Virus record (IMG/VR): IMGVR_UViG_3300048548_000657 | Span: 1 to 39,313 of that record | Reading direction: 5' to 3' (one strand) | Length of the DNA stretch: 39,313 nucleotides | DNA from: a virus | In this document: positions 834 to 26,080 of the stretch, piece after piece | Position numbering within the stretch: the first letter of the stretch is position 1 | Layout: the number at the start of each line of letters is the position of its first letter | Made by a program: the position numbers and the translations under genes | The notes under the pieces: model-generated | Told to the model about the DNA's origin: nothing | Seen by the model: the letters and a program-made list of their open reading frames with translations, nothing else | Databases searched by the model: none

Positions 834-907
834 AGCATATCATACATCCATGCAAGCAGTATTAACCCTAACAGCATAAAACAAAATATAGATATTAGAT
901 CATTCAT
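830..907 (-). CDS. 25-residue single-membrane-span microprotein
   Basis: The frame reads MNDLISIFCFMLLGLILLAW followed by MYDML. A short acidic N-terminus precedes about 18 hydrophobic residues, enough for one membrane span. It exactly fills the gap between two genes. Its ATG overlaps the TGA of the acetyltransferase frame (stop 904-906), and its own TGA overlaps the ATG of the gene at 833. Four-base ATGA overlaps on both sides argue that it is translated. Function is unknown; a small regulator of a membrane protein or a pinholin-like peptide is possible. Confidence 0.6.
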   Translation of the reverse strand: MNDLISIFCFMLLGLILLAWMYDML

Positions 908-1440
908 TTCTTAGGGATATATGCGAAGCTTGCCGTATATCTTCCAATGGATGATGTGCTAGTTTTCATTGCGGAGTTTTTTCCGAACTGACCCACTCGC
1001 CCCAATCTAGTTGTTTTCCATTGCGGGTCTTTTCTTCTAGATACAATTAATGCGGGATTTGTTGTCGTAGAAATAAACTTTTTGCCAATTTTGTTTAGAT
1101 ATTCACCGAGCCAACAGGACAAATAATGTCCAAGCCCTACGCCTTGGTAATCAGGCAGAATTACCACTCTGTGCTCACGATAAGCATTTTTCAGCTTCGG
1201 GTGCGGAAATTGTAATGCTGAAATAAACCCACATAAATTATTTTCCGCTGTCATCACAAAAGCTTTACTAGCTTTGTTGTGGGCTGTGTTTAGATAGTGG
1301 TAGCGAGCAAAGAAGTTCCATAGCTCTTGCTTTCTTGTTTGTGCATCGAAGATTTCGACTCTGATTGGCGGTCTGTTGTCGGGAGTTTTTTTTTCAGCCT
1401 CATGCTGTTTGTACAAAAGACCCAATCGGGCTGTAACCAC
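904..1440 (-). CDS. GNAT acetyltransferase half of a split ABC-ATPase/acetyltransferase
   Basis: The frame carries a GNAT acetyltransferase fold. The RVVILPDYQGVGLGHYLSCW segment (about residues 91-110) is the acetyl-CoA-binding motif A, with V-x-x-x-x-QGxGxG/A geometry, and ARYHYL at about 45 is a typical preceding strand. The only start near the 5' end is a GTG at 1440 in a poor context, deep inside the ATPase gene. In the COG2401-type family known from phages and plasmids, an ABC ATPase is fused to this acetyltransferase. Here the two lie in different frames and overlap by 151 bp. A -1 shift on the A9 run (plus-strand T9 at 1386-1394) joins them into one protein of about 359 residues. The substrate is unknown. 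Confidence 0.75.
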   Translation of the reverse strand: MVTARLGLLYKQHEAEKKTPDNRPPIRVEIFDAQTRKQELWNFFARYHYLNTAHNKASKAFVMTAENNLCGFISALQFPHPKLKNAYREHRVVILPDYQGVGLGHYLSCWLGEYLNKIGKKFISTTTNPALIVSRRKDPQWKTTRLGRVGQFGKNSAMKTSTSSIGRYTASFAYIPKK

Positions 1441-1982
1441 TCTTCTACATCATAATGACAAGTACACGCTATAAACTGCTTGTCAGTTCTTCTAATTGCT
1501 TTCTGCATAGCGTAGCTACCGATCTTTGCCACATTTCTATCTACGACAGATGTAAATTCGTCAAAAGCGAACATATTTGGAGCTTCTAACAATGCTCTAG
1601 CAAGCTCTACACGCATTTTTTCGCCATTACTTAATACATGATACGGTTTTAACCATGATGGTGGGCTTGAAAACCCTACCGCATTCAATGTTTTACATAT
1701 TTCTGTCATTGAAACGCTTTCGGGCATGTCATCGACCACAGCGGTGGCCGTAAATTTATGATTTTCCGTTATGTAATCACCAAAAAGCTCTTTTAAAATC
1801 GTTGTTTTACCTGTCCCACTAGCTCCCACGATTAATCCGATTGACCATTTTTCGGGTAATGCAATTGAGCCTGTAAAACGCTCTACAATCTTTTTGCTCT
1901 GTAGATCATACTTACCGATTACAGATTGAACCCGAAAAGAATCCTCGGGCTCGCTTTCTCTTACAATGTCAAAATCTTGCAC
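1290..1982 (-). CDS. ABC-type ATPase, COG2401-like, ATPase half of the split fusion
   Basis: A soluble ABC ATPase with Walker A GASGTGKTT (residues 53-61), signature LSNGEKMRVELARA (117-130), Walker B NMFAFDEF (136-143) and H-loop histidine at about 176 in CHYDVEEW. There are no membrane segments. The conserved EWLQPDWVF end of the domain is followed by MRLKKK, encoded by an A9 run, after which the annotated frame runs on for 30 low-complexity residues (TTDRQSESKSSMHKQESKS). Those residues are probably the unshifted tail, because the -1 frame holds the acetyltransferase expected at this point. The start overlaps the end of the ParB-like gene by 22 bp. ParB-like plus ABC-GNAT is a recurrent phage and plasmid gene pair of unknown job. 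Confidence 0.85.
   Translation of the reverse strand: MQDFDIVRESEPEDSFRVQSVIGKYDLQSKKIVERFTGSIALPEKWSIGLIVGASGTGKTTILKELFGDYITENHKFTATAVVDDMPESVSMTEICKTLNAVGFSSPPSWLKPYHVLSNGEKMRVELARALLEAPNMFAFDEFTSVVDRNVAKIGSYAMQKAIRRTDKQFIACTCHYDVEEWLQPDWVFCTNSMRLKKKLPTTDRQSESKSSMHKQESKSYGTSLLATTI
1386..1394 (-). other. A9 homopolymer, candidate -1 frameshift or transcript-slippage site
   Basis: On the coding strand the sequence is CTG AAA AAA AAA CTC. A -1 slip gives CTG AAA AAA AAA ACT CCC and enters the acetyltransferase frame just after the end of the ATPase domain. One added A, by polymerase slippage or as an assembly error, would have the same effect. Confidence 0.6.
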
Positions 1983-2545
1983 TCATAGCCCTCCGCACAC
2001 AATTCTCTGTATAGCTTTTCCTGTTGCTGTTCGTTTTTGCACTTAATTTCCAACGCAAAGTATTCACCTAGATTGTCCGACAAGTCATCCGACTCTGTGT
2101 CTTGATGAAACTCGCTCATAAGCTTTTCCAAGCTGTTATCGTCAAAGCCTGTTACATCTAGATCAATTTCGCCTGTATCTAGCTGTTCGATCATGTCTTT
2201 TAACGATGCACGATCTATTTCCGCAAGCTCTGCGATTCTATTGTCAGCTATAAGATCAGCCCACTCTTGAGCTTCGTTTTCGTAATCTTGATAACTAACA
2301 GGGACTTGCTGTAGCCCTAAATGCTTTGCAGTTTCTAATCTTCCATGACCACGAACAATAAACCCGCTTAGATTACTTACAACTATCGGCAATCTCCAAC
2401 CTTGAAATCTAATAATTTTACCAAGTAGCTTTATTTGCTTTTCGTCATGTGTGTTTGGATTTCTTGGATTTGGGATAACTTCGTCAATGTTTACGAGTTT
2501 CTCGCTTGTATGATTTATTATTGGTTGTTGCTCGTTGTTATCCAT
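1961..2545 (-). CDS. ParB/Srx-like domain protein
   Basis: 194 residues. The N-terminal part holds a ParB/sulfiredoxin-like fold: VIPNPRNPNTHDEKQI (about 23-38), then VRGHGRLETAKHLG (64-77), which corresponds to the GxHRxxA-type nucleotide-binding motif, and DNRIAELAE (101-109). The C-terminal half is acidic and ends in a small alpha/beta segment. There is no DNA-binding helix-turn-helix of the plasmid ParB type, and no ParA is present, so partition is unlikely. The family occurs in phages next to COG2401-like ABC-acetyltransferase genes or DNA methylases, as here. Its stop overlaps the ATPase start, so they should be cotranslated. A ParB-type CTPase/NTPase or a nuclease activity is possible. 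Confidence 0.85.
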   Translation of the reverse strand: MDNNEQQPIINHTSEKLVNIDEVIPNPRNPNTHDEKQIKLLGKIIRFQGWRLPIVVSNLSGFIVRGHGRLETAKHLGLQQVPVSYQDYENEAQEWADLIADNRIAELAEIDRASLKDMIEQLDTGEIDLDVTGFDDNSLEKLMSEFHQDTESDDLSDNLGEYFALEIKCKNEQQQEKLYRELCAEGYECKILTL

Positions 2546-2557
2546 ATTTAAAAAAAA

Positions 2558-2956
2558 TTACTTACTGTAATCCTGTGCCATAATTGTCTTTAGCATATTA
2601 TTTTCCACCCATAAATCGTGCTCTGTTTCTGATAGCTGTCTTCCGTCTAAATATATTTTATTGCCGTCTTCTGTCTGCTCGTAACGCACTTCACACCCTC
2701 CGCTTTTGTCATGTATTGCTATAAAGTGCATCATACCTAAAGCCACTTCTGCATTTGGCAAATGATTACGCTTTACGATCCATTCGTGACATTGATTCCA
2801 ATTCTTATCTAAGAATCTCGCAAGATCAGCCATTCGTGCGTCACCACGATCTATTACTCGCTGTGTTTTATCTAAAATTGCTTGCAGTCGCATCTCGTAT
2901 AGATTTATGCGAGACATCGCACTTGTCAATCCCTTTAATATTTTGATCCGAGCCAT
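2558..2956 (-). CDS. Lambda-repressor-type HTH protein
   Basis: 132 residues. Residues about 42-75, ARMADLARFLDKNWNQCHEW and the following IVKRNHLPN, look like a phage HTH: a first helix (MADLARFLD), a turn, and a recognition helix ending in W, followed by a helix around EVALGMMHFI. The first 13 residues (MARIKILKGLTSA) overlap the upstream glutamine amidotransferase by 22 bp and may not be translated; a second ATG lies at 2917. It sits in the operon that starts at promoter A and is a candidate local regulator. The target is unknown. Cro-like repression of the dyad promoters is possible but not shown. Confidence 0.7.
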   Translation of the reverse strand: MARIKILKGLTSAMSRINLYEMRLQAILDKTQRVIDRGDARMADLARFLDKNWNQCHEWIVKRNHLPNAEVALGMMHFIAIHDKSGGCEVRYEQTEDGNKIYLDGRQLSETEHDLWVENNMLKTIMAQDYSK

Positions 2957-3615
2957 GATGAAAAATCTCCCTGTGTTGCTTGTGGTTTATATGGTAAGAA
3001 GCTGTGTCTTCTAGCTGTAAATTTTGAGGGCTTCCACCTCATGTTAGAGAACTTGCAACCCTCGTAGCTTTCCCAATCTCCGTAAAATGTAGCGGTCTTT
3101 TTCTTGCACTTGCTCATATACAAAGATCGCACTCTTTTATGATTTGGGTGCTTGTCTGATATATTAGAAAGCCATGCTGTAGATAAAGATGATCCTACTG
3201 TCTGTGCCATTGCTCTAGTATCTGATAAGCTACCCTTGAGTGCAGGCAATTTTAACAGCTTGCGAACCACTTCGTAGCTTTGCTCCCAATTCAACCAAGT
3301 TCCGTTAGTCATTAGAATATCCGAAGCTTCGTAGTCTAGCCATGTTTCTGCTTTTGCTGTGCATGGAAATGGATGACAAAGCTTATCTGATACACCGCCC
3401 GCTGTAGCGTATCGAAAGTGTAAGGCGATGGGTCCGTCTGTATTGCGTAGCGTTTTCTTTACATAGTCTAAAGAAACTCCCTTGCTTACTGAAAACATTT
3501 CTCTTGATCCTTGCGTTACGATTCCGATTCCGTGTGGATTTGCTTTTTCGCAAAGCTCTAAAGTTTTTGAGCTTGGGCGACTTCCCGCACATGGGCTAAA
3601 TATTATTACACACAT
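2935..3615 (-). CDS. Class II glutamine amidotransferase-like Ntn hydrolase
   Basis: 226 residues. The protein begins Met-Cys, and Cys2 would be the N-terminal nucleophile once Met is removed, as in class II glutamine amidotransferases. The usual landmarks follow: NPHGIG (26-31), ALHFRYATAGG (64-74), HPFP (81-84) and LMTNGTW (101-107), which stands where HNGxI is found in the family. Such domains release ammonia from glutamine for a partner ligase. The adjacent upstream gene is an amidoligase, and a gamma-glutamylcyclotransferase lies 1.7 kb away. Genomic surveys by Iyer, Aravind and colleagues described this combination as a peptide-modification set. The start is preceded by AAC-rich leader DNA rather than a Shine-Dalgarno. 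Confidence 0.8.
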   Translation of the reverse strand: MCVIIFSPCAGSRPSSKTLELCEKANPHGIGIVTQGSREMFSVSKGVSLDYVKKTLRNTDGPIALHFRYATAGGVSDKLCHPFPCTAKAETWLDYEASDILMTNGTWLNWEQSYEVVRKLLKLPALKGSLSDTRAMAQTVGSSLSTAWLSNISDKHPNHKRVRSLYMSKCKKKTATFYGDWESYEGCKFSNMRWKPSKFTARRHSFLPYKPQATQGDFSSWLGSKY

Positions 3616-3657
3616 TGTTTTATTTTGTTAGTTGTTATTGTTAGTTGTTAACTGACC

Positions 3658-4641
3658 TTACACGAAGCGTGTAAGATCAAGAGTTCCGTTAGAGCGATTA
3701 ACTGCTCTGCGAATGTTTGTAGCAAACTTCTTAGCCATCTTGCGCCCGATGCTAAACATAGCTCTTTTGTTTTCTACGAAAGTTGGAAACTGATTAACAA
3801 GAGCATGAAACTTATTTTTGTTCGATCCAAGATTTCTTACAAATGTATCGAAAGCAATGTCGCCTTTGTCAGCAGTTTTATGCTTACCATCCCAAGCGGT
3901 TCGCTTGTTGGTCATACCTGCATGAGCACAGATAAAAGCAGTAAGCAAGTGCATTAAAACTTTATTGTAGTTACAAGTTCCTGCGAATGCACGAAACTCA
4001 ATAGTAGCTTTGCTTGATTGTACTCCGTTGCTACGAGTGCGATGAGTATTTAAGAATGTGAACTTATCGTAATCAAACATAGGGACTCTATTGTTTCTTG
4101 CTTCTTGCTCTGCAAGATGCTTGGAAACATTTGGTTTAGCGTAGTTATGTTTCAAGTAGCGATAAGCACTTCCGTTTTGTGCGAAGATTGTTGTTTTGAT
4201 GCTGTTAGCAAATTTCATTGTACGAAGGACGGTCTCGATAGCTTGGTCGATGTTGTCACCTTCGGTCATTGCTTGTAATCCGATGTGAATGTGAAGTCCG
4301 CAAGAGCGATCTACGATAGCTCCTTTAGCATCTAACCATTTGAAGAATCTTACTACATTCTTGAGTCCTTCTTCACCTTTAAGAATGCGGGATGTAAATT
4401 CGATTCCGTGAAAGTCACGCTTGCGGGAAATTGTTGAATCGTATCCTGCTCTCCATTCTGTGATTGCGTTTCCTTCAAGATCATTGATGTGATTCATGTC
4501 GATCATGTTTTCTTCTCTCCAATTGTAGGAACTAACTTCGATTCCGTATTGACGAGCAAGATGCTTTGGGAACATGCATTCGATTTCGATTCCGAAAGTG
4601 AGGTTTTGAAGAAGTTGAAGAGCTTGTGTGTGATTTTTCAT
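3658..4641 (-). CDS. Amidoligase (glutamine synthetase/GCS-like COOH-NH2 ligase, Amidoligase_2 type)
   Basis: 327 residues. It shows the pattern of the GS-fold amidoligases: TFGIEIE (15-21) as the first metal-binding strand, GYDSTIS (66-72), GIEFTSRI (79-86), CGLHIHIG (114-121) supplying the metal-binding histidines, and TIEFRAFAGT (213-222). Members form amide bonds between a carboxylate and an amine, using ATP and a glutamate-like substrate. The natural substrate here is unknown; peptide, cell-wall or protein targets have been proposed for the family. It is the first gene after promoter A (4696-4724), which has a dyad operator. The leader ends CTAACACAAAATG. Together with the glutamine amidotransferase downstream it forms a compact two-enzyme unit. 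Confidence 0.88.
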   Translation of the reverse strand: MKNHTQALQLLQNLTFGIEIECMFPKHLARQYGIEVSSYNWREENMIDMNHINDLEGNAITEWRAGYDSTISRKRDFHGIEFTSRILKGEEGLKNVVRFFKWLDAKGAIVDRSCGLHIHIGLQAMTEGDNIDQAIETVLRTMKFANSIKTTIFAQNGSAYRYLKHNYAKPNVSKHLAEQEARNNRVPMFDYDKFTFLNTHRTRSNGVQSSKATIEFRAFAGTCNYNKVLMHLLTAFICAHAGMTNKRTAWDGKHKTADKGDIAFDTFVRNLGSNKNKFHALVNQFPTFVENKRAMFSIGRKMAKKFATNIRRAVNRSNGTLDLTRFV

Positions 4642-18495: not shown

Positions 18496-19220
18496 TAAGC
18501 TGATGTGTAAATCATTGTGTTCCAACCCTTCTCACCCGACAAACGATAAATCGCTGTTGACTTTATTGCTCCGCCTATTACCTCCTGCGTGCTCCCCATC
18601 AGCAACCAATTACGATCCCCAATACTAAGCTGTACATCTGGATCTTTAATGTCTGCAATGTCATAAATGTCGTCCGTTATCCAAGTCGGTTGATCCATTC
18701 TGTCGTTAGTTTCCACCGTAATCTTTTCAAGCTCTAGGCTTGGGCTTAAATACCCTGTGACACCTCCAAGGTCATTTTCAGCATTTGCAGGAAAGTAATC
18801 AAATTCACTATCCTCTTCATCGCCTTTAAATTTTGCACCATTTTTTTTATCTGCTCCGTTACCCGCAATTTTTCCGTTGTATCCATCAGGCTCGTCATCA
18901 AAAGCGGGATGTGTTTGTATTGGCTCCTGTGTACCTTGTGCGGACAATCTGTATGATTCCTGCCTTTCAATTGCTCCCTTAAAAGTTTTCGTAATCGTCT
19001 TAATCGCATCTGAGTCGTCAATTGAAACATCCGTGCAAAGCAATTGATTGTAGTCAGGGCTATTTGCACCAATTACCATAAAATCTTGCGACCTGTATGC
19101 GTTACCGCTCGTAAACTCTCCACTCAAAGTGGTTGTGATTGTTTGAGTTACTATTCCAAATTCATCCACCGTAATGGACTTAGATGTAGTAACTCCGTTA
19201 GTTATCCCCTTTTTTATCAT
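18495..19220 (-). CDS. Tail protein downstream of the tape measure
   Basis: 241 residues, beta-rich at both ends, with an acidic linker (KGDEEDSEFDYFPANAEND) in the middle. The start is coupled to the tape measure stop by an ATGA overlap. The position is that of the distal tail or minor tail protein in siphophages. No family was recognised, so the role rests on gene order. Confidence 0.65.
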   Translation of the reverse strand: MIKKGITNGVTTSKSITVDEFGIVTQTITTTLSGEFTSGNAYRSQDFMVIGANSPDYNQLLCTDVSIDDSDAIKTITKTFKGAIERQESYRLSAQGTQEPIQTHPAFDDEPDGYNGKIAGNGADKKNGAKFKGDEEDSEFDYFPANAENDLGGVTGYLSPSLELEKITVETNDRMDQPTWITDDIYDIADIKDPDVQLSIGDRNWLLMGSTQEVIGGAIKSTAIYRLSGEKGWNTMIYTSA

Positions 19221-22200
19221 CGCATGACCTTACCGTTTTCTGCTAATTGTAAAGCTATTGTCTGCATCTTTGCCTCTTCTAAAGTTTGCTTTGCTATATT
19301 TACTAAATTTTTCGTTTCTGAAGTAAGTGTGCCAAATACACCACCACCACCACCAATTGATGCGAGGCTTGAGGCAATTACGCCTCCACTATCGCTACCT
19401 AGACCATTTTGCCCTTCTGATCCTACCGCCTTTCTTGGCACTCCGTTGGCTTCTAGGGTGGCATCTTTTGCCATTTTAGTCGTAGCTTTCCCTGCTTCGT
19501 TTACTTCAGTTAGTGCACCATTCAGAATAGAGGCTAATCTTTGACTATCTCTAGCTACGCTTGGTGGAAGCTCAAATGCGTTTGATCCTTCCTTAAATCC
19601 CTTTTTTAGGGCATTTACTTGACCATCTATAAACTGACTAACTTCACCGTCCGTCCGTTTAATAATGGCTTCAGCGTTCTTGTATCCTTGGTCAGCAAAT
19701 CCTTGTATATTTTTTGCCAAACTACCACTATTTTGAAGCTCTTGTTTGAGTATTACCTCGAAGCTTCTTGCCTTGCTTGCTTTATCGTCGCCTACAAAAG
19801 GTAATTTGTTAATTGCGTCGGCAGCCTCTTCTACAGCTTTCTTTAATCCCGCAGTCAGGTAAGCAATTGGAGTCTCGAACGCTTTCATAAATTGTGCACC
19901 AAGCTCAATAAAGAAAAACCCTATTTTACCTAATCTTGCCAATACATTTGGTATAATTTGACCAACGACTTTAGGTAAAACTTGCACCCCATAAACAAAT
20001 GAATTTGCAAGTGCCCTTGTAACTCCTTGACCAAAATTCAATACTGCTACAAGTCCCTTGCGTAAGCCGATAGATATTCCCAAGAACAATACTTCACCTA
20101 GCTGACCACTTTGAAAAAGCTGTATTGCCACTTTGATTGCTGTAGAAAATGTTGCTACCCACTCAGACAAAAATTCTCCTAACCTTCCAATTAATGGCTT
20201 CAGCAAATCACCAAGCTGAATTTTTAATGTTTCCGTTCTAGCACTTAGTTTTTTCATGGTTCGACTAAAAGCCGTATCCATCTTGTCAGCTTGCCCTGCA
20301 ACGCCACCCGCAGAGTTTGCAATTTCGTCTAGATTGCCTGCAAGCATTGTTCCGTTTTTCGCTCCAAGCATTAGGGCAGTATTTAGGTTTTCTTGTCCAC
20401 CTAATAGCTCTGCCATTGCCTGTGCATTACCGCCCGTTGCGTTTCGAACCTCTTGCAAGATTGCACCCAACCCACGACCCGCCAAATCTGCTTTTGTAAA
20501 ATTCACGCCTAGCTTACCCATCGCCTCTCTTGCTTGCTCGCTGGGGCTTACTATTGATGCAGTCAGGCTCTTAATTTCACCTATGGCGGTGGCACCTAAT
20601 TTACCTTGCTGTGTTAAGGTCTTCAATGCACCTAAGAAATCATTAAAACCTATACCTGTTGATGACAGGTCGGGACCTAATCTTTTAATTGAATCACTCA
20701 ATGAGCCTACATTTACATCGACTCCCCTAGTAGCACGAAACAATGCGTCGGATGCTTCAGATGCCGTAATTCCCTCACTTGCAAATGCACGCATTGAATT
20801 ACCTAATAAATCCATTGCACCTTCCAAATCTGTAGCTCCTGTCTTAGCTAGTAGCATTGCCTGCTTTACTGCTCCTACCGCATTGTCTGCATCAAAGCCT
20901 TTTCTAAAAGCTTGCTGTAATGCAGGGAGGGCTTGGTCGCTTGTAAATCCCATTTCGTTTTGCAAAGCCATTATTTCTTTGCGTACTTTACCAAAACTAC
21001 CTTGTGCCGAATTTGGCAACTCTGCCATAGCTTTACGGAAGTTTTTGTTAAAACTAGCCACTCCCCCTGTCGCAGAACTTGACAGCAAGCCTGCAAAAGT
21101 CCGAAATACACCAACAACAGCCGTGATTGCTATTCCTGCAACGCTACCCATTTTCGCTAGTCCGCCCAATGCTTTGCCTGCTGACTGAATTGGTCTTGTC
21201 GCAATGCTTTTGATGCCTGTGCCTATGCTTCTAATCGGAGCTAATGCCTTGCTCGCACCCTGAGACAATGCGTTAAATCCAATGCGTGAAGACATTCCGC
21301 CAACTCTTCCCAAAGTGCGGACTAAAACTTTGCTTGTTCCTATTAATGCAGTAAAAGAAGCACCCAAAGCTAGTGAGGATCCCTTTACCGCGATATTGGC
21401 AGGATTTAGCCCCTTGATCATAGATGACAAGCTACGCATAGCACTACCAAGCCTTTTAGAATTTGCTACTGCATTACCAAAAGCCCCGCCTAGCCCTGTT
21501 GTAGTTTTGCCAAGTAAAGTAGCTTGGGCACCTAATCCACGCATTGTTACGCCTAGCTTGCCCATAATCCCGTCTGCCGTCCTAAAGTCTCTGATGGTTC
21601 GCATAACCTTCCCACCCATTGCTGTAGTCTGATCGCCAAGTAACTTAAATATCTGAGGAGCTTTTGCCATCTGACCGCTTGTAATTTCTGTGCCCATCCC
21701 TTTAATTGCGGACGCAGTTGACTTGGATCCTTGAATTACCTTACCAAATGAACTAATTACAGAGCGAAGTGAATTTCTACCAAACTTTGCAAAATTAACA
21801 ATGTCGTTCGACATTCCGACTATGGATGTACTTACTCTTTGAGAGCTTACCGTCATAGTTCTGAATAACCTTACAGGTAAAACTTTACGCAAAACTAAAA
21901 AATTGGATGACAATCTTTCTACCTGAGTCAATAGCTTTACATTAGAATTTATAAATTTCCGTATAGCTCCATCGCCTGCGTTCATGGCAAGAGTAAGTAT
22001 GGGTCCAAACTCTTTAACGATTCGTGCTAACTCTTTAAAGATTTCAGCAAATACTTTTAGCGTTGTACTATCAATTTTTGTGTTTCCAATCTGCTGAAAC
22101 AAGCCTCGCAATGTATTTGCTTCTCGCCCTGACTTTTTACTTTCGCCTGCTAGACGATTCATGCTTTTTGCGGATTGACTGAAATCCATGCGAGAAATTC

Positions 22201-22297
22201 CTCCCGCTACTCGCTGTACGCTATTGCGTACATTTGTCATTCCTGCGTTAAATTTTGACAGGTTTGCTCCTACTTCTACTTCAATTTGCTCGCTCAT
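19217..22297 (-). CDS. Tail tape measure protein
   Basis: 1026 residues. The first 380 residues are repetitive helix with many Gly/Ser/Lys turns. SVAGIAITAVVGVFRTFAGL near 385-405 is a hydrophobic segment, and the following 200 residues are a TP901-type tape measure core (GFTSDQALPALQQAFRKGFD, GATDLEGAMDLLGNSMRAFA, SEASDALFRATRG). At about 1.5 angstrom per residue the tail would be near 150 nm. Together with the G/T chaperones directly upstream this shows a siphovirus with a non-contractile tail. The C-terminal 180 residues are helical and may enter the host. No peptidoglycan hydrolase motif was seen in it. Confidence 0.93.
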   Translation of the reverse strand: MSEQIEVEVGANLSKFNAGMTNVRNSVQRVAGGISRMDFSQSAKSMNRLAGESKKSGREANTLRGLFQQIGNTKIDSTTLKVFAEIFKELARIVKEFGPILTLAMNAGDGAIRKFINSNVKLLTQVERLSSNFLVLRKVLPVRLFRTMTVSSQRVSTSIVGMSNDIVNFAKFGRNSLRSVISSFGKVIQGSKSTASAIKGMGTEITSGQMAKAPQIFKLLGDQTTAMGGKVMRTIRDFRTADGIMGKLGVTMRGLGAQATLLGKTTTGLGGAFGNAVANSKRLGSAMRSLSSMIKGLNPANIAVKGSSLALGASFTALIGTSKVLVRTLGRVGGMSSRIGFNALSQGASKALAPIRSIGTGIKSIATRPIQSAGKALGGLAKMGSVAGIAITAVVGVFRTFAGLLSSSATGGVASFNKNFRKAMAELPNSAQGSFGKVRKEIMALQNEMGFTSDQALPALQQAFRKGFDADNAVGAVKQAMLLAKTGATDLEGAMDLLGNSMRAFASEGITASEASDALFRATRGVDVNVGSLSDSIKRLGPDLSSTGIGFNDFLGALKTLTQQGKLGATAIGEIKSLTASIVSPSEQAREAMGKLGVNFTKADLAGRGLGAILQEVRNATGGNAQAMAELLGGQENLNTALMLGAKNGTMLAGNLDEIANSAGGVAGQADKMDTAFSRTMKKLSARTETLKIQLGDLLKPLIGRLGEFLSEWVATFSTAIKVAIQLFQSGQLGEVLFLGISIGLRKGLVAVLNFGQGVTRALANSFVYGVQVLPKVVGQIIPNVLARLGKIGFFFIELGAQFMKAFETPIAYLTAGLKKAVEEAADAINKLPFVGDDKASKARSFEVILKQELQNSGSLAKNIQGFADQGYKNAEAIIKRTDGEVSQFIDGQVNALKKGFKEGSNAFELPPSVARDSQRLASILNGALTEVNEAGKATTKMAKDATLEANGVPRKAVGSEGQNGLGSDSGGVIASSLASIGGGGGVFGTLTSETKNLVNIAKQTLEEAKMQTIALQLAENGKVMR

Positions 22298-22884
22298 TTA
22301 AAAAACTTTCTGATGTCTTGGGTGATTTTTTTCTTCAAGTAATATCCTGCACTTAAGGCAGTTTCAGATACAGCATTACTCGCAATGCCTATGGTTTTCT
22401 GAAAGTGACTTACGCCACCTTGAGTGCTTTTAAACTTAGCCCTTGGCTTAAGACCTTTACATTGTATTTCTACTAAAGTTTTATCCGTAGTGTCGTTACC
22501 AATAGTTGTGATTCGCCCTTTTGTTGATTCCATCCAATTAGGATAATGCAATGACTTGCCCGTATGACCGATTCTTGCGATCCTGTCGCGAATTATTTTT
22601 TCTTTAATTTTTGGAGTTAATCGTCTGAGATTTTTACTTTTACCTTCCAACACAAAGGCACTCCTGAGTTTTCGTACATCGTTTTCAATCGTTGCCTCCG
22701 TCGGCTTGTTCTGCATTGCAATACCATGCATACCTTCAGTTGATGGCAAGCCTTCCGCTTGTTTTCCTGTAACTACATTGCGTAAAATGTTTTCTACTAA
22801 TTTCCCAGCTTCTGTACTAGCGTATGTATTCGACTTCCCCAAGCTCCTCATCAAACCATTCACCTTCACTTTTACCCTTATCAT
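22294..22884 (-). CDS. Basic tail protein between chaperones and tape measure
   Basis: 196 residues from ATG 22884. A TTG at 22905 would extend it by seven, and the frame overlaps the end of the chaperone T region by 68 bp. It is strongly basic, with 20% or so Lys and Arg by eye, for example KGKSKNLRRLTPKIKEKIIR-like stretches. The end is a helix, GYYLKKKITQDIRKFFK. Its stop overlaps the tape measure start by 4 bp. No family was recognised; a tail assembly or tape-measure-binding factor is inferred from position. Confidence 0.65.
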   Translation of the reverse strand: MIRVKVKVNGLMRSLGKSNTYASTEAGKLVENILRNVVTGKQAEGLPSTEGMHGIAMQNKPTEATIENDVRKLRSAFVLEGKSKNLRRLTPKIKEKIIRDRIARIGHTGKSLHYPNWMESTKGRITTIGNDTTDKTLVEIQCKGLKPRAKFKSTQGGVSHFQKTIGIASNAVSETALSAGYYLKKKITQDIRKFFK

Positions 22885-23511
22885 TAGTGGGTGCTTTTTT
22901 ACCAAGCCCTCCGAAGATTTGACTCAGTAAGTTTTTTGAACTTAGTGGTCGAGTTTTTACGCCATTGTTTTGCATGTAAGCATGTGCAAAAGCGAACAAT
23001 TGCACCAAAGGCATTTCCCAAAAAAGATTTGTAGCTTTCTGTGCGTCGTTGTTTGACAACGCCAAGCACATGGCAAGGTATTGATTTGCGGGTTCCTCTG
23101 CCGATACCCCTATCTCTTTCCCACTTCTGCACCTTCATCGGGAACCATTGCGTTTTCAAAGCTGTCATTTAGCATGTCGCCAATCCCTACAGCAATTTGA
23201 TTAAAATCTTTAAGTTGTATGTCATCCGCCCAATCCATGACGGCAGTAACCAAAGACAGGCTTCGCCCTGTAGAATCAGTTTCAGACGCTTGGAAAATTA
23301 TGTCTCTTGCTGACTTCGCACCAACTGCATGAATCCACATAAAAGTTAATAATTCGAATTGTGGATGTTGTGACTCCTTACCGCTTATTAATCCTAGATT
23401 CAAAAATTCGCACAGGGTAAAACTTGATGCTGTAATTTTGTGCAATTTTATGCCCGCTATTTCTGTGTACTTATCGTCTACTAGTGCCTTAGTTACTTTT
23501 TTATTACTCAT
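22817..23511 (-). CDS. Tail assembly chaperone GT, -1 frameshift product
   Basis: The 132 residues up to the slippery site are joined to 99 residues in the -1 frame, giving a protein of about 231 residues. After the shift the sequence begins EIGVSAEEPANQYLAMCLAL and continues to a charged end GEWFDEELGEVEYIR. In lambda the GT form binds the tape measure through its T domain and is made in small amounts relative to G. The T frame has no good start of its own near the junction, which supports the shift. The following gene begins inside its last codons. Confidence 0.85.
23110..23511 (-). CDS. Tail assembly chaperone G
   Basis: 133 residues, with IAGIKLHKITASSFTLCEFL (about 18-37), then LLTFMWIHAVGAKSARDIIF, a helical small protein of the gpG type. 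It ends GAEVGKR and the stop follows two codons after the slippery heptamer. It would coat the tape measure during tail assembly and be absent from the finished virion. It lies directly upstream of the T frame and the tape measure, the standard arrangement. Confidence 0.85.
   Translation of the reverse strand: MSNKKVTKALVDDKYTEIAGIKLHKITASSFTLCEFLNLGLISGKESQHPQFELLTFMWIHAVGAKSARDIIFQASETDSTGRSLSLVTAVMDWADDIQLKDFNQIAVGIGDMLNDSFENAMVPDEGAEVGKR
23116..23122 (-). promoter_or_regulatory. Programmed -1 ribosomal frameshift site GGGAAAG
   Basis: On the minus strand, codons GTG GGA AAG contain G GGA AAG, the X-XXY-YYZ heptamer and the very sequence used in lambda G-T. A -1 slip leads from V-G-K into E-I-G-V and opens the 99-residue T domain. 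Confidence 0.93.
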
Positions 23512-25615: not shown

Positions 25616-26080
25616 TTATTTTTTTTTACCGCCTGGTCTCGCGTATGCCTGTGCTCCACCTGTATACATTGGCGGGCGTGTTAGGCTTTTGTGCACTTCT
25701 GACTTACTGCATTTTCGTGCCACAAACACAGGTATAAAGAGATAAGCTACAAGTATTACGCCAACTATTACCAAAAGCTTTTTTATTCCTTCCGTAAAAG
25801 ATGTAAATAACCCGTTCTGCTTGCTCATTCCTTTAGCTACTAAAGCTTCTACATCTCCGTGCGATAGTGCAGTTATAGTTTCTTTTGCTTCTTCTATCTC
25901 TTCATTACCTCTAGCTACTTCGCCCACTAAGGCTCCGCCTGCTCCGCCAAGCCCCGCCCCAATGGGTCCCGCCAAACTGCCGACACCACCACCCACCAAA
26001 GCTCCCGCTGTCGGATAAAACTGCTTCATACTACAAGAAGTTATGTAAAACAATACAGGCATATATAATATTTTACGCAT
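25616..26080 (-). CDS. Lipoprotein with glycine zipper and membrane span, possible lysis factor
   Basis: 154 residues. The first 16 (MRKILYMPVLFYITSC) form a lipoprotein signal with ITSC as lipobox, so Cys16 would be acylated. Residues about 25-55 are a Gly/Ala zipper (GALVGGGVGSLAGPIGAGLG), then a charged helix (GNEEIEEAKETITA), a second membrane span (LLVIVGVILVAYLFIPVFVA), and a basic end. Glycine zipper lipoproteins insert in membranes. With the holin-like genes that follow, an envelope-disrupting or spanin-like role is reasonable; superinfection exclusion is the alternative. Its ATG overlaps the preceding fibre gene's stop (TGATG). Confidence 0.65.
   Translation of the reverse strand: MRKILYMPVLFYITSCSMKQFYPTAGALVGGGVGSLAGPIGAGLGGAGGALVGEVARGNEEIEEAKETITALSHGDVEALVAKGMSKQNGLFTSFTEGIKKLLVIVGVILVAYLFIPVFVARKCSKSEVHKSLTRPPMYTGGAQAYARPGGKKK

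Follow-up and report, generated by a model that had tools for sequence, protein, structure and literature searches.

The window analysed here, the whole 39,313-nucleotide stretch of IMG/VR virus record IMGVR_UViG_3300048548_000657, carries on its minus strand an open reading frame (ORF) for an ABC-type ATPase and, in the -1 frame relative to it, a GNAT acetyltransferase domain, the two meeting at a run of nine adenines (A9) (Table 1). A preliminary description of the sequence had claimed this split, and we found the coordinates, codons and frames to be essentially as claimed. The zero-frame codons at the run are ATG AGG CTG AAA AAA AAA CTC CCG, and the GNAT frame reads GAA AAA AAA ACT CCC GAC and ends at a stop codon at 904-906; it is entered when base 1386 is read twice or one A is added. 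The ATPase through the run (199 aa) and the GNAT portion (160 aa) add up to the 359-residue fusion that had been proposed. Some details required correction: the codons CTG AAA AAA AAA CTC are present but do not directly follow EWLQPDWVF, as six codons (C T N S M R) intervene; the unshifted frame does run out into a tail, which is 31 rather than 30 residues long; and the GTG in the GNAT frame is real but not, as had been stated, the only candidate start, with two TTG codons also lying upstream of the run.

In a PHROG profile search the ATPase matched the N-terminal half of phrog_11143 (3.1e-60, positions 3-194 of 357) and the GNAT frame its C-terminal half (4.1e-28, positions 192-350 of 357). 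As this single model covers both domains, the family is normally one protein; the earlier statement to that effect holds for phrog_11143 but is incomplete, since the -1 arrangement is shared by 46 of 110 non-redundant relatives. The A9 run satisfies the homopolymer criterion for a transcriptional slippage site (at least about nine A or T at a frame change) and, through its in-phase A_AAA_AAA, the motif criterion for canonical -1 ribosomal frameshifting, but no strong downstream stimulatory stem was found at this or the other A-type sites, those formed by long A runs. Runs of this length are not in themselves rare in the window, with two seen against five expected from shuffling. The only one besides the junction, at 25619-25627 (minus strand), immediately precedes the stop codon that ends ORF 25616-26080, whose product finishes in GGKKK.

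Table 1. Features of the ATPase/GNAT locus and its immediate neighbours in the window.
Feature	Position	Strand	Remarks
Downstream ORF of the operon, 155 aa	366..833	minus	Next ORF after the GNAT frame; family not found (Pfam, PHROG)
GNAT portion entered after -1 shift	904..1386	minus	160 aa and stop; Pfam Acetyltransf_1 3.7e-6
Full open GNAT frame	904..1440	minus	GTG at 1440; overlaps ATPase ORF
ABC-type ATPase ORF	1982..1290	minus	GTG start, 230 aa; Pfam ABC_tran 1.2e-11
Short form	1290..1982	minus	ATPase domain (~190 aa), KKK and 31-residue run-out tail
Unshifted tail of short form	1290..1385	minus	LPTTDRQ...ATTI and TAA stop
A9 slippery run (T9 on plus strand)	1386..1394	minus	CTG AAA AAA AAA CTC; A_AAA_AAA in phase
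SD-like GAGG	1398..1401	minus	Directly 5' of the run; seen in the sequence, role not shown
ParB/Srx-like protein	1961..2545	minus	ParB_N 3e-5; overlaps ATPase gene start; conserved partner

Conservation of the split and selection on the acetyltransferase frame

A nucleotide search of known phages with this region of the window gave no match. Independent metagenomic contigs from three other IMG/VR records (L002, L003 and L004) share the -1 relation, with ATPases that are 96, 94 and 71% identical to that of the window, respectively (71-97% over the four contigs). The length of the homopolymer, which the preliminary description had proposed to check in related phages, is A9 in L002 and L003 and A10 in L004, and the split is kept in all three. 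In L004, with a GNAT identity of 57%, the A10 run lies in another codon phase and a -1 shift is again required; GGAG stands where the window has its SD-like GAGG.

Both the arrangement and its conservation are direct observations, as is the selection that acts on it. The GNAT frame gave dN/dS values of 0.11-0.22 among the three closest loci. Within the overlap, comparison of the window with L002 gave 0.05 for the GNAT frame versus about 1.2 for the tail frame, a contrast that rests on small counts and is weaker in pairs with L003. Purifying selection on the GNAT frame starts just after the A9 run, and the unshifted tail shows no protein-level selection.

Frame states across the ATPase-GNAT family

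Scans with several family members, together with cultured phages, yielded 138 distinct ATPase/GNAT pairs, 110 of them non-redundant. These comprise 61 in-frame fusions, 46 loci with GNAT in the -1 frame and 3 in the +1 frame; among the last, only L044/L045, with an A11 run, looks sound. The loci share descent, and such counts are not independent trials. The -1 members among cultured phages include Lactococcus P335, Vinitor-27, MismyG, Enterococcus 9184 and Thomasclavelia TR-TP1. We set aside from the shifted loci two with further frame errors (L061 and L102) and one with a stop codon inside the ATPase (L073). The first of these, from Streptococcus phage Javan420, is an otherwise typical -1 member whose extra frame change lies within the GNAT domain and reflects error or decay. 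In Tenacibaculum phage pT24 (L194), both domains lie in one frame and are annotated as two CDS, with an in-frame stop inside the GNAT domain (approximately 1750-2190), for which stop readthrough, error and decay are the alternatives.

Frame changes are located in one and the same interdomain linker; when a fused relative was modelled with AlphaFold (mean pLDDT 85), this linker came out as a weak spot between two well-predicted domains. At A-type junctions a run of A9-A11 is found in 40/40 relatives (28 fused and 12 shifted), against 9 such runs in 164.5 kb comprising the remainder of the A10 loci; it is therefore the location of the run, and not an A9 itself, that is non-chance. Searching for the junction with a strict DNA pattern recovered L004 alone, as the pattern required ten A, or C before nine A. 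On a quick ATPase tree we counted at least 8 changes of frame state, 7 of them among A-run members, with the long branches L064 and L068 excluded. Going beyond the preliminary description, the whole family recodes at the ATPase/GNAT joint by several mechanisms, the slippage itself being inferred.

Slippery motifs and stems in the -1 group

Junctions of the -1 group are of two kinds. The first consists of A9-A10 runs without a downstream stem, and includes the window, L004, L043, L099, L100, L106, L114, L119, L122, L140 and L186. The second carries G GUU UUU or N GUU UUU (P335, Streptococcus phages and others), U UUU UUU/UUC or A AAU UUU, as well as U_UUU tetramers in the Oenococcus group and A AAA AAG in Enterococcus 9184, with the in-phase slip tetramer nearly always 35 or 38 nt past PDW. 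A heptamer or GGTTTT-type motif was in phase in 36/42 shifted representatives, compared with 22 and 13 in the other phases. These linker-limited tests replaced plain heptamer counts over all overlaps. Enrichment in those counts was only moderate, since a long A run scores whatever the phase and A AAT TTA is dictated by encoded KF codons.

Sites of the second kind usually have a stem that begins 6 nt after the heptamer, examples being GCCCAC/GTGGGC, CCCCCAC/GTGGGGG and CGCCACG/CGTGGCG, with others of up to 14 bp. In 13 sequences sharing one 3'-arm position, RNAalifold found the stem unprompted, and 8 cells change on both sides; the covariation observed was matched by 0/500 shuffles and scored above all slid versions. 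The grouping by 3'-arm position was made after inspection, which favours the stem. A similar stem in a second group (n = 8) is mostly invariant. The downstream-structure criterion of -1 ribosomal frameshifting is satisfied in the T-type group, and A-type sites, having no stem, lack the usual stimulator for ribosomal shifting.

Elsewhere in the window, a lambda-type G GGA AAG (GAA GTG GGA AAG AGA TAG) lies at 23116-23122 (minus strand), at the end of a tail-chaperone-like ORF (23110-23511). The ORF that follows (22817-23071) is in the -1 frame relative to it and precedes the tape measure gene (19217-22297); the site is probably a classical tail-chaperone frameshift.

Sites in the fused genes

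Many of the fused genes also carry a sequence at the joint that resembles a recoding signal. In 28 non-redundant fused genes the run is exactly A10, mostly within GGG CAA AAA AAA AAT AGA, and one added A would lead to an immediate stop in 26/28. The other fused genes carry, in frame, AGG or GGG, any three bases, and CTT or GTT in 24/33 cases, compared with 4 occurrences among the 10,606 codons that make up the rest of these genes; about 0.01 would be expected per scanning window. This motif resembles the release factor 2 (RF2) frameshift site of prfB, and a +1 shift there would yield a tail, usually of 26-31 codons, with the same end as the tail of the -1 group. At the 26 scored sites the slip codon was always NTT (16 CTT, 9 GTT and 1 ATT), and it persists at 60-71% GC, where these codons make up 8-26% of their family. 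As AGG/GGG was a selection criterion for these sites, only the NTT regularity, an observed codon constraint, counts there. Among nine loci outside those used to define the motif, four have it, two have CTT without a clear SD-like element and three distant ones have neither; the distant members pT24, Nonlabens P12024S and PX29 lack the motif. No stop codon follows the slip codon, the next codon being CAA, CAG, CGG, AGG, CGA or TGG, and the efficiency of any shift is therefore doubtful.

These signals might be mere by-products of amino-acid and codon preference, with only the -1 members recoding. The peptides QKKN and RSLQRRP are both conserved, there is little precedent for a +1 shift at NTT when a sense codon comes next, and the motif is missing from some distant fused members. 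Such preference would nonetheless have to produce NTT at all 26 scored sites, high-GC genomes included, the excess of the motif over expectation, and an A10 that is exact in 28/28 cases, and we think it an unlikely account, if a serious one.

A proposed single gene with two products

Our interpretation is that the two ORFs of the window are one gene from which recoding yields two products, a bare ATPase and an ATPase-GNAT fusion; we assign this a probability of roughly 0.78, with the slippage inferred in the absence of expression data. The preliminary description had proposed a -1 frameshift or transcriptional slippage to the same effect, and this remains the best-supported reading given the recurrent split, the selection on GNAT and the missing starts. 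Normal reading would produce an ABC ATPase ending 31 codons past the A9 run. In a fraction of expression the GNAT domain would be reached in the -1 frame, through an A added by RNA polymerase at the run, as we prefer, or through ribosomal slippage on A_AAA_AAA, and the product would be the full-length fusion with a flexible linker at the joint. The same two products are predicted family-wide, from long A runs or from canonical -1 ribosomal sites that are followed by a stem; in the fused genes, the A10 run or the RF2-like +1 motif would instead remove the GNAT domain. We further infer that the two forms likely serve to adjust how many ATPase subunits are bare and how many bear GNAT, as with gamma and tau of dnaX.

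Several other explanations of the split need to be weighed. Homopolymers are error-prone and no raw reads stand behind the run length, so that an assembly or sequencing error, or a decaying pseudogene, has to be considered; but the identical split is found in four contigs and in isolated phages and purifying selection acts on the GNAT domain, from which we conclude that neither applies and regard both as practically ruled out. The GNAT domain could also be a separate protein, whose translation would begin at an internal start or be reinitiated through coupling to the stop of the ATPase. Truncated GNAT ORFs are annotated in databases for P335, Vinitor-27 and MismyG, the GNAT frame of the window has the possible starts noted above, and GeneTack classed many ABC-transporter frame transitions as coupling (PMC3711429). 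This alternative had been anticipated in the preliminary description, for which a conserved split with a strong internal start would have argued for two proteins. The split is indeed conserved, yet in 26/42 shifted loci the GNAT frame contains no ATG, GTG or TTG from the upstream stop as far as the YHYL motif, and GNAT in these loci is therefore unable to begin by normal initiation. A conserved beta-strand before YHYL would be lost, a stop sits just upstream of the A10 run in L004, and the slip signals and stems would be left without purpose; we consider separate proteins quite improbable. Phase variation, in which the run changes length during replication and toggles the fusion between phage genomes, would fit the difference between close kin (L114-L129 with A9 in the -1 state versus L126 with A10, fused) and the 7 changes of state among A-run rows on the tree. 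It too is improbable: run length and frame are identical in 74/80 close pairs, with all six exceptions involving one locus, a constancy that also speaks against random sequencing error, and a long run that could change length is lacking in most ribosomal-type members and in every RF2-like one.

Within the recoding interpretation, which machine slips in the window, and at what rate, is a matter of inference, as is the occurrence of slippage itself. A ribosomal -1 slip rather than polymerase slippage could account for the fusion: A_AAA_AAA is in phase, an SD-like GAGG/GGAG lies just upstream of the run, close relatives clearly use ribosomal-type sites with stems, and V_VV.A_AA.R motifs are among the efficient ones in E. 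coli (PMC4066793). We nevertheless prefer polymerase slippage because A-type runs are always 9-11 A although about seven would suffice for the ribosome, because the stem is absent, and because L044 requires the opposite direction, a +1 or -2 shift at A11 that is easier by polymerase slippage. The SD-like element is also closer to the run than in dnaX, which counts against the ribosome. Transcriptional slippage is thus the likelier mechanism in the window, but it is unproven and rests on run length and analogy; the ribosomal alternative appears doubtful without being dismissed.

Partner genes and possible function

In phage pT24, which belongs to the family surveyed, a GNAT coupled to an ABC ATPase was predicted to acylate a DNA base, according to PMC7824862; the predicted DNA acyl-modification system described there, for which Iyer et al. 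2013 is cited, has the same domain pair as ours. The ParB-like partner in the window has as its best PHROG match the N-terminal part of a 633-aa DNA methyltransferase family (phrog_498, 5.2e-42), and the order of the ParB-like and ATPase-GNAT genes is kept in P335 and Streptococcus phages. Streptococcus phage Javan447 has a ParB-like methylase in this slot near the terminase. Other loci have differing neighbours (L065, L066, L070, L201 and L199), among them formyltransferase-like genes in Porphyromonas and Pseudomonas phages and plasmid pKV29, and an aspartate decarboxylase in Jace; these genes may set the acyl group. We infer a complex in which the putative enzyme and its ParB-like partner would acylate phage DNA bases with a varied acyl supply, and in which ABC dimers might mix bare and GNAT-bearing subunits. 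The substrate of the enzyme is likewise inferred only.

The window also contains an Amidoligase_2 gene at 3658-4641 (minus strand; Pfam 1.1e-13), adjoined by an ORF at 2935-3615 (minus strand) whose product starts MCVIIF and by eye resembles an N-terminal-cysteine amidotransferase. The pair (2935-4641) possibly provides acyl or peptide supply for a modification cassette.

Profile searches gave no match to Mom, and Pfam returned only general GNAT models for the GNAT frame. A PDB search with the fused model retrieved generic ABC ATPases only. We assign no defence system, since PADLOC matched the ATPase only weakly, to mad3/mad8, and the NCBIfam matches were limited to general ABC models.

Relation to known recoding systems

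The phage Mu protein Mom is a GNAT that modifies adenine; the protein here is also a GNAT, with an unknown substrate. Sites of the second -1 kind resemble those of lambda gpG/gpGT, T7 gene 10 and E. coli dnaX in having an in-phase slippery site and a downstream stem; P335-type G GUU UUU is close to the T7 gene 10 site, and Enterococcus 9184 carries the A AAA AAG motif, but the A9 of the window differs in having no stem. To our knowledge, most recoding described in phages concerns structural proteins, for example tail chaperones and capsids, unlike the putative DNA-modifying enzyme considered here. In prfB, the shift precedes a UGA stop and makes the long product. The fused group shares with it the SD-like AGG/GGG, the three-base spacing and CTT (or GTT), but a sense codon comes next, the in-frame product is the long one and a shift, predicted from sequence alone, would yield the short one.

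Polymerase slippage likewise has counterparts elsewhere. In Thermus thermophilus dnaX, tau and gamma arise by transcriptional slippage, with the long form encoded in one ORF and extra bases giving the short form, as an extra base would in the A10 fused group; in Shigella spa13, slippage adds a C-terminal extension, lengthening the product as proposed for the window (both PMC5009743). The tssM genes of Citrobacter (tssM1) and Yersinia (tssM3) contain A11 and A9 runs (PMC4256274), and are similar in that long A runs give two length variants of one protein. These are other genes with other functions, and in the ATPase-GNAT family both directions of use are seen within one family and the A run is also replaced by ribosomal signals.

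The available part of PMC7824862 makes no mention of recoding in the ABC ATPase-GNAT gene, nor was any found at keyword level in the accessible text, supplements excluded, of PMC3711429, PMC5009743, PMC4066793 and PMC10885494; a mention in Iyer et al. 2013 is not excluded. Our literature search also returned no paper pairing COG2401 with an acetyltransferase. The enzyme family and each recoding mechanism are already known, and we found no earlier description of recoding in ATPase-GNAT.

That lineages have swapped recoding mechanism in a putative DNA-base-acylation gene is the best reading of these data. More tentatively, at somewhat less than even odds, we propose that the family depends so heavily on a fixed ratio of two products that the mechanism has been repeatedly exchanged at a single interdomain joint. 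The mechanisms would be slippage of RNA polymerase on A runs, used in both directions, -1 ribosomal frameshifting aided by a stem, and an RF2-like +1 shift at a sense codon that gives the short form. These findings place inferred recoding in a putative DNA-base-modifying enzyme of dozens of phages from unrelated hosts. Database entries now show a bare 'ABC transporter', with the acetyltransferase truncated or absent, and many such annotations would be corrected if our interpretation is true. The family would then offer a natural series for how one recoding mechanism becomes another, and would imply, testably, that a DNA-modification complex needs both the bare and the GNAT-bearing ATPase.
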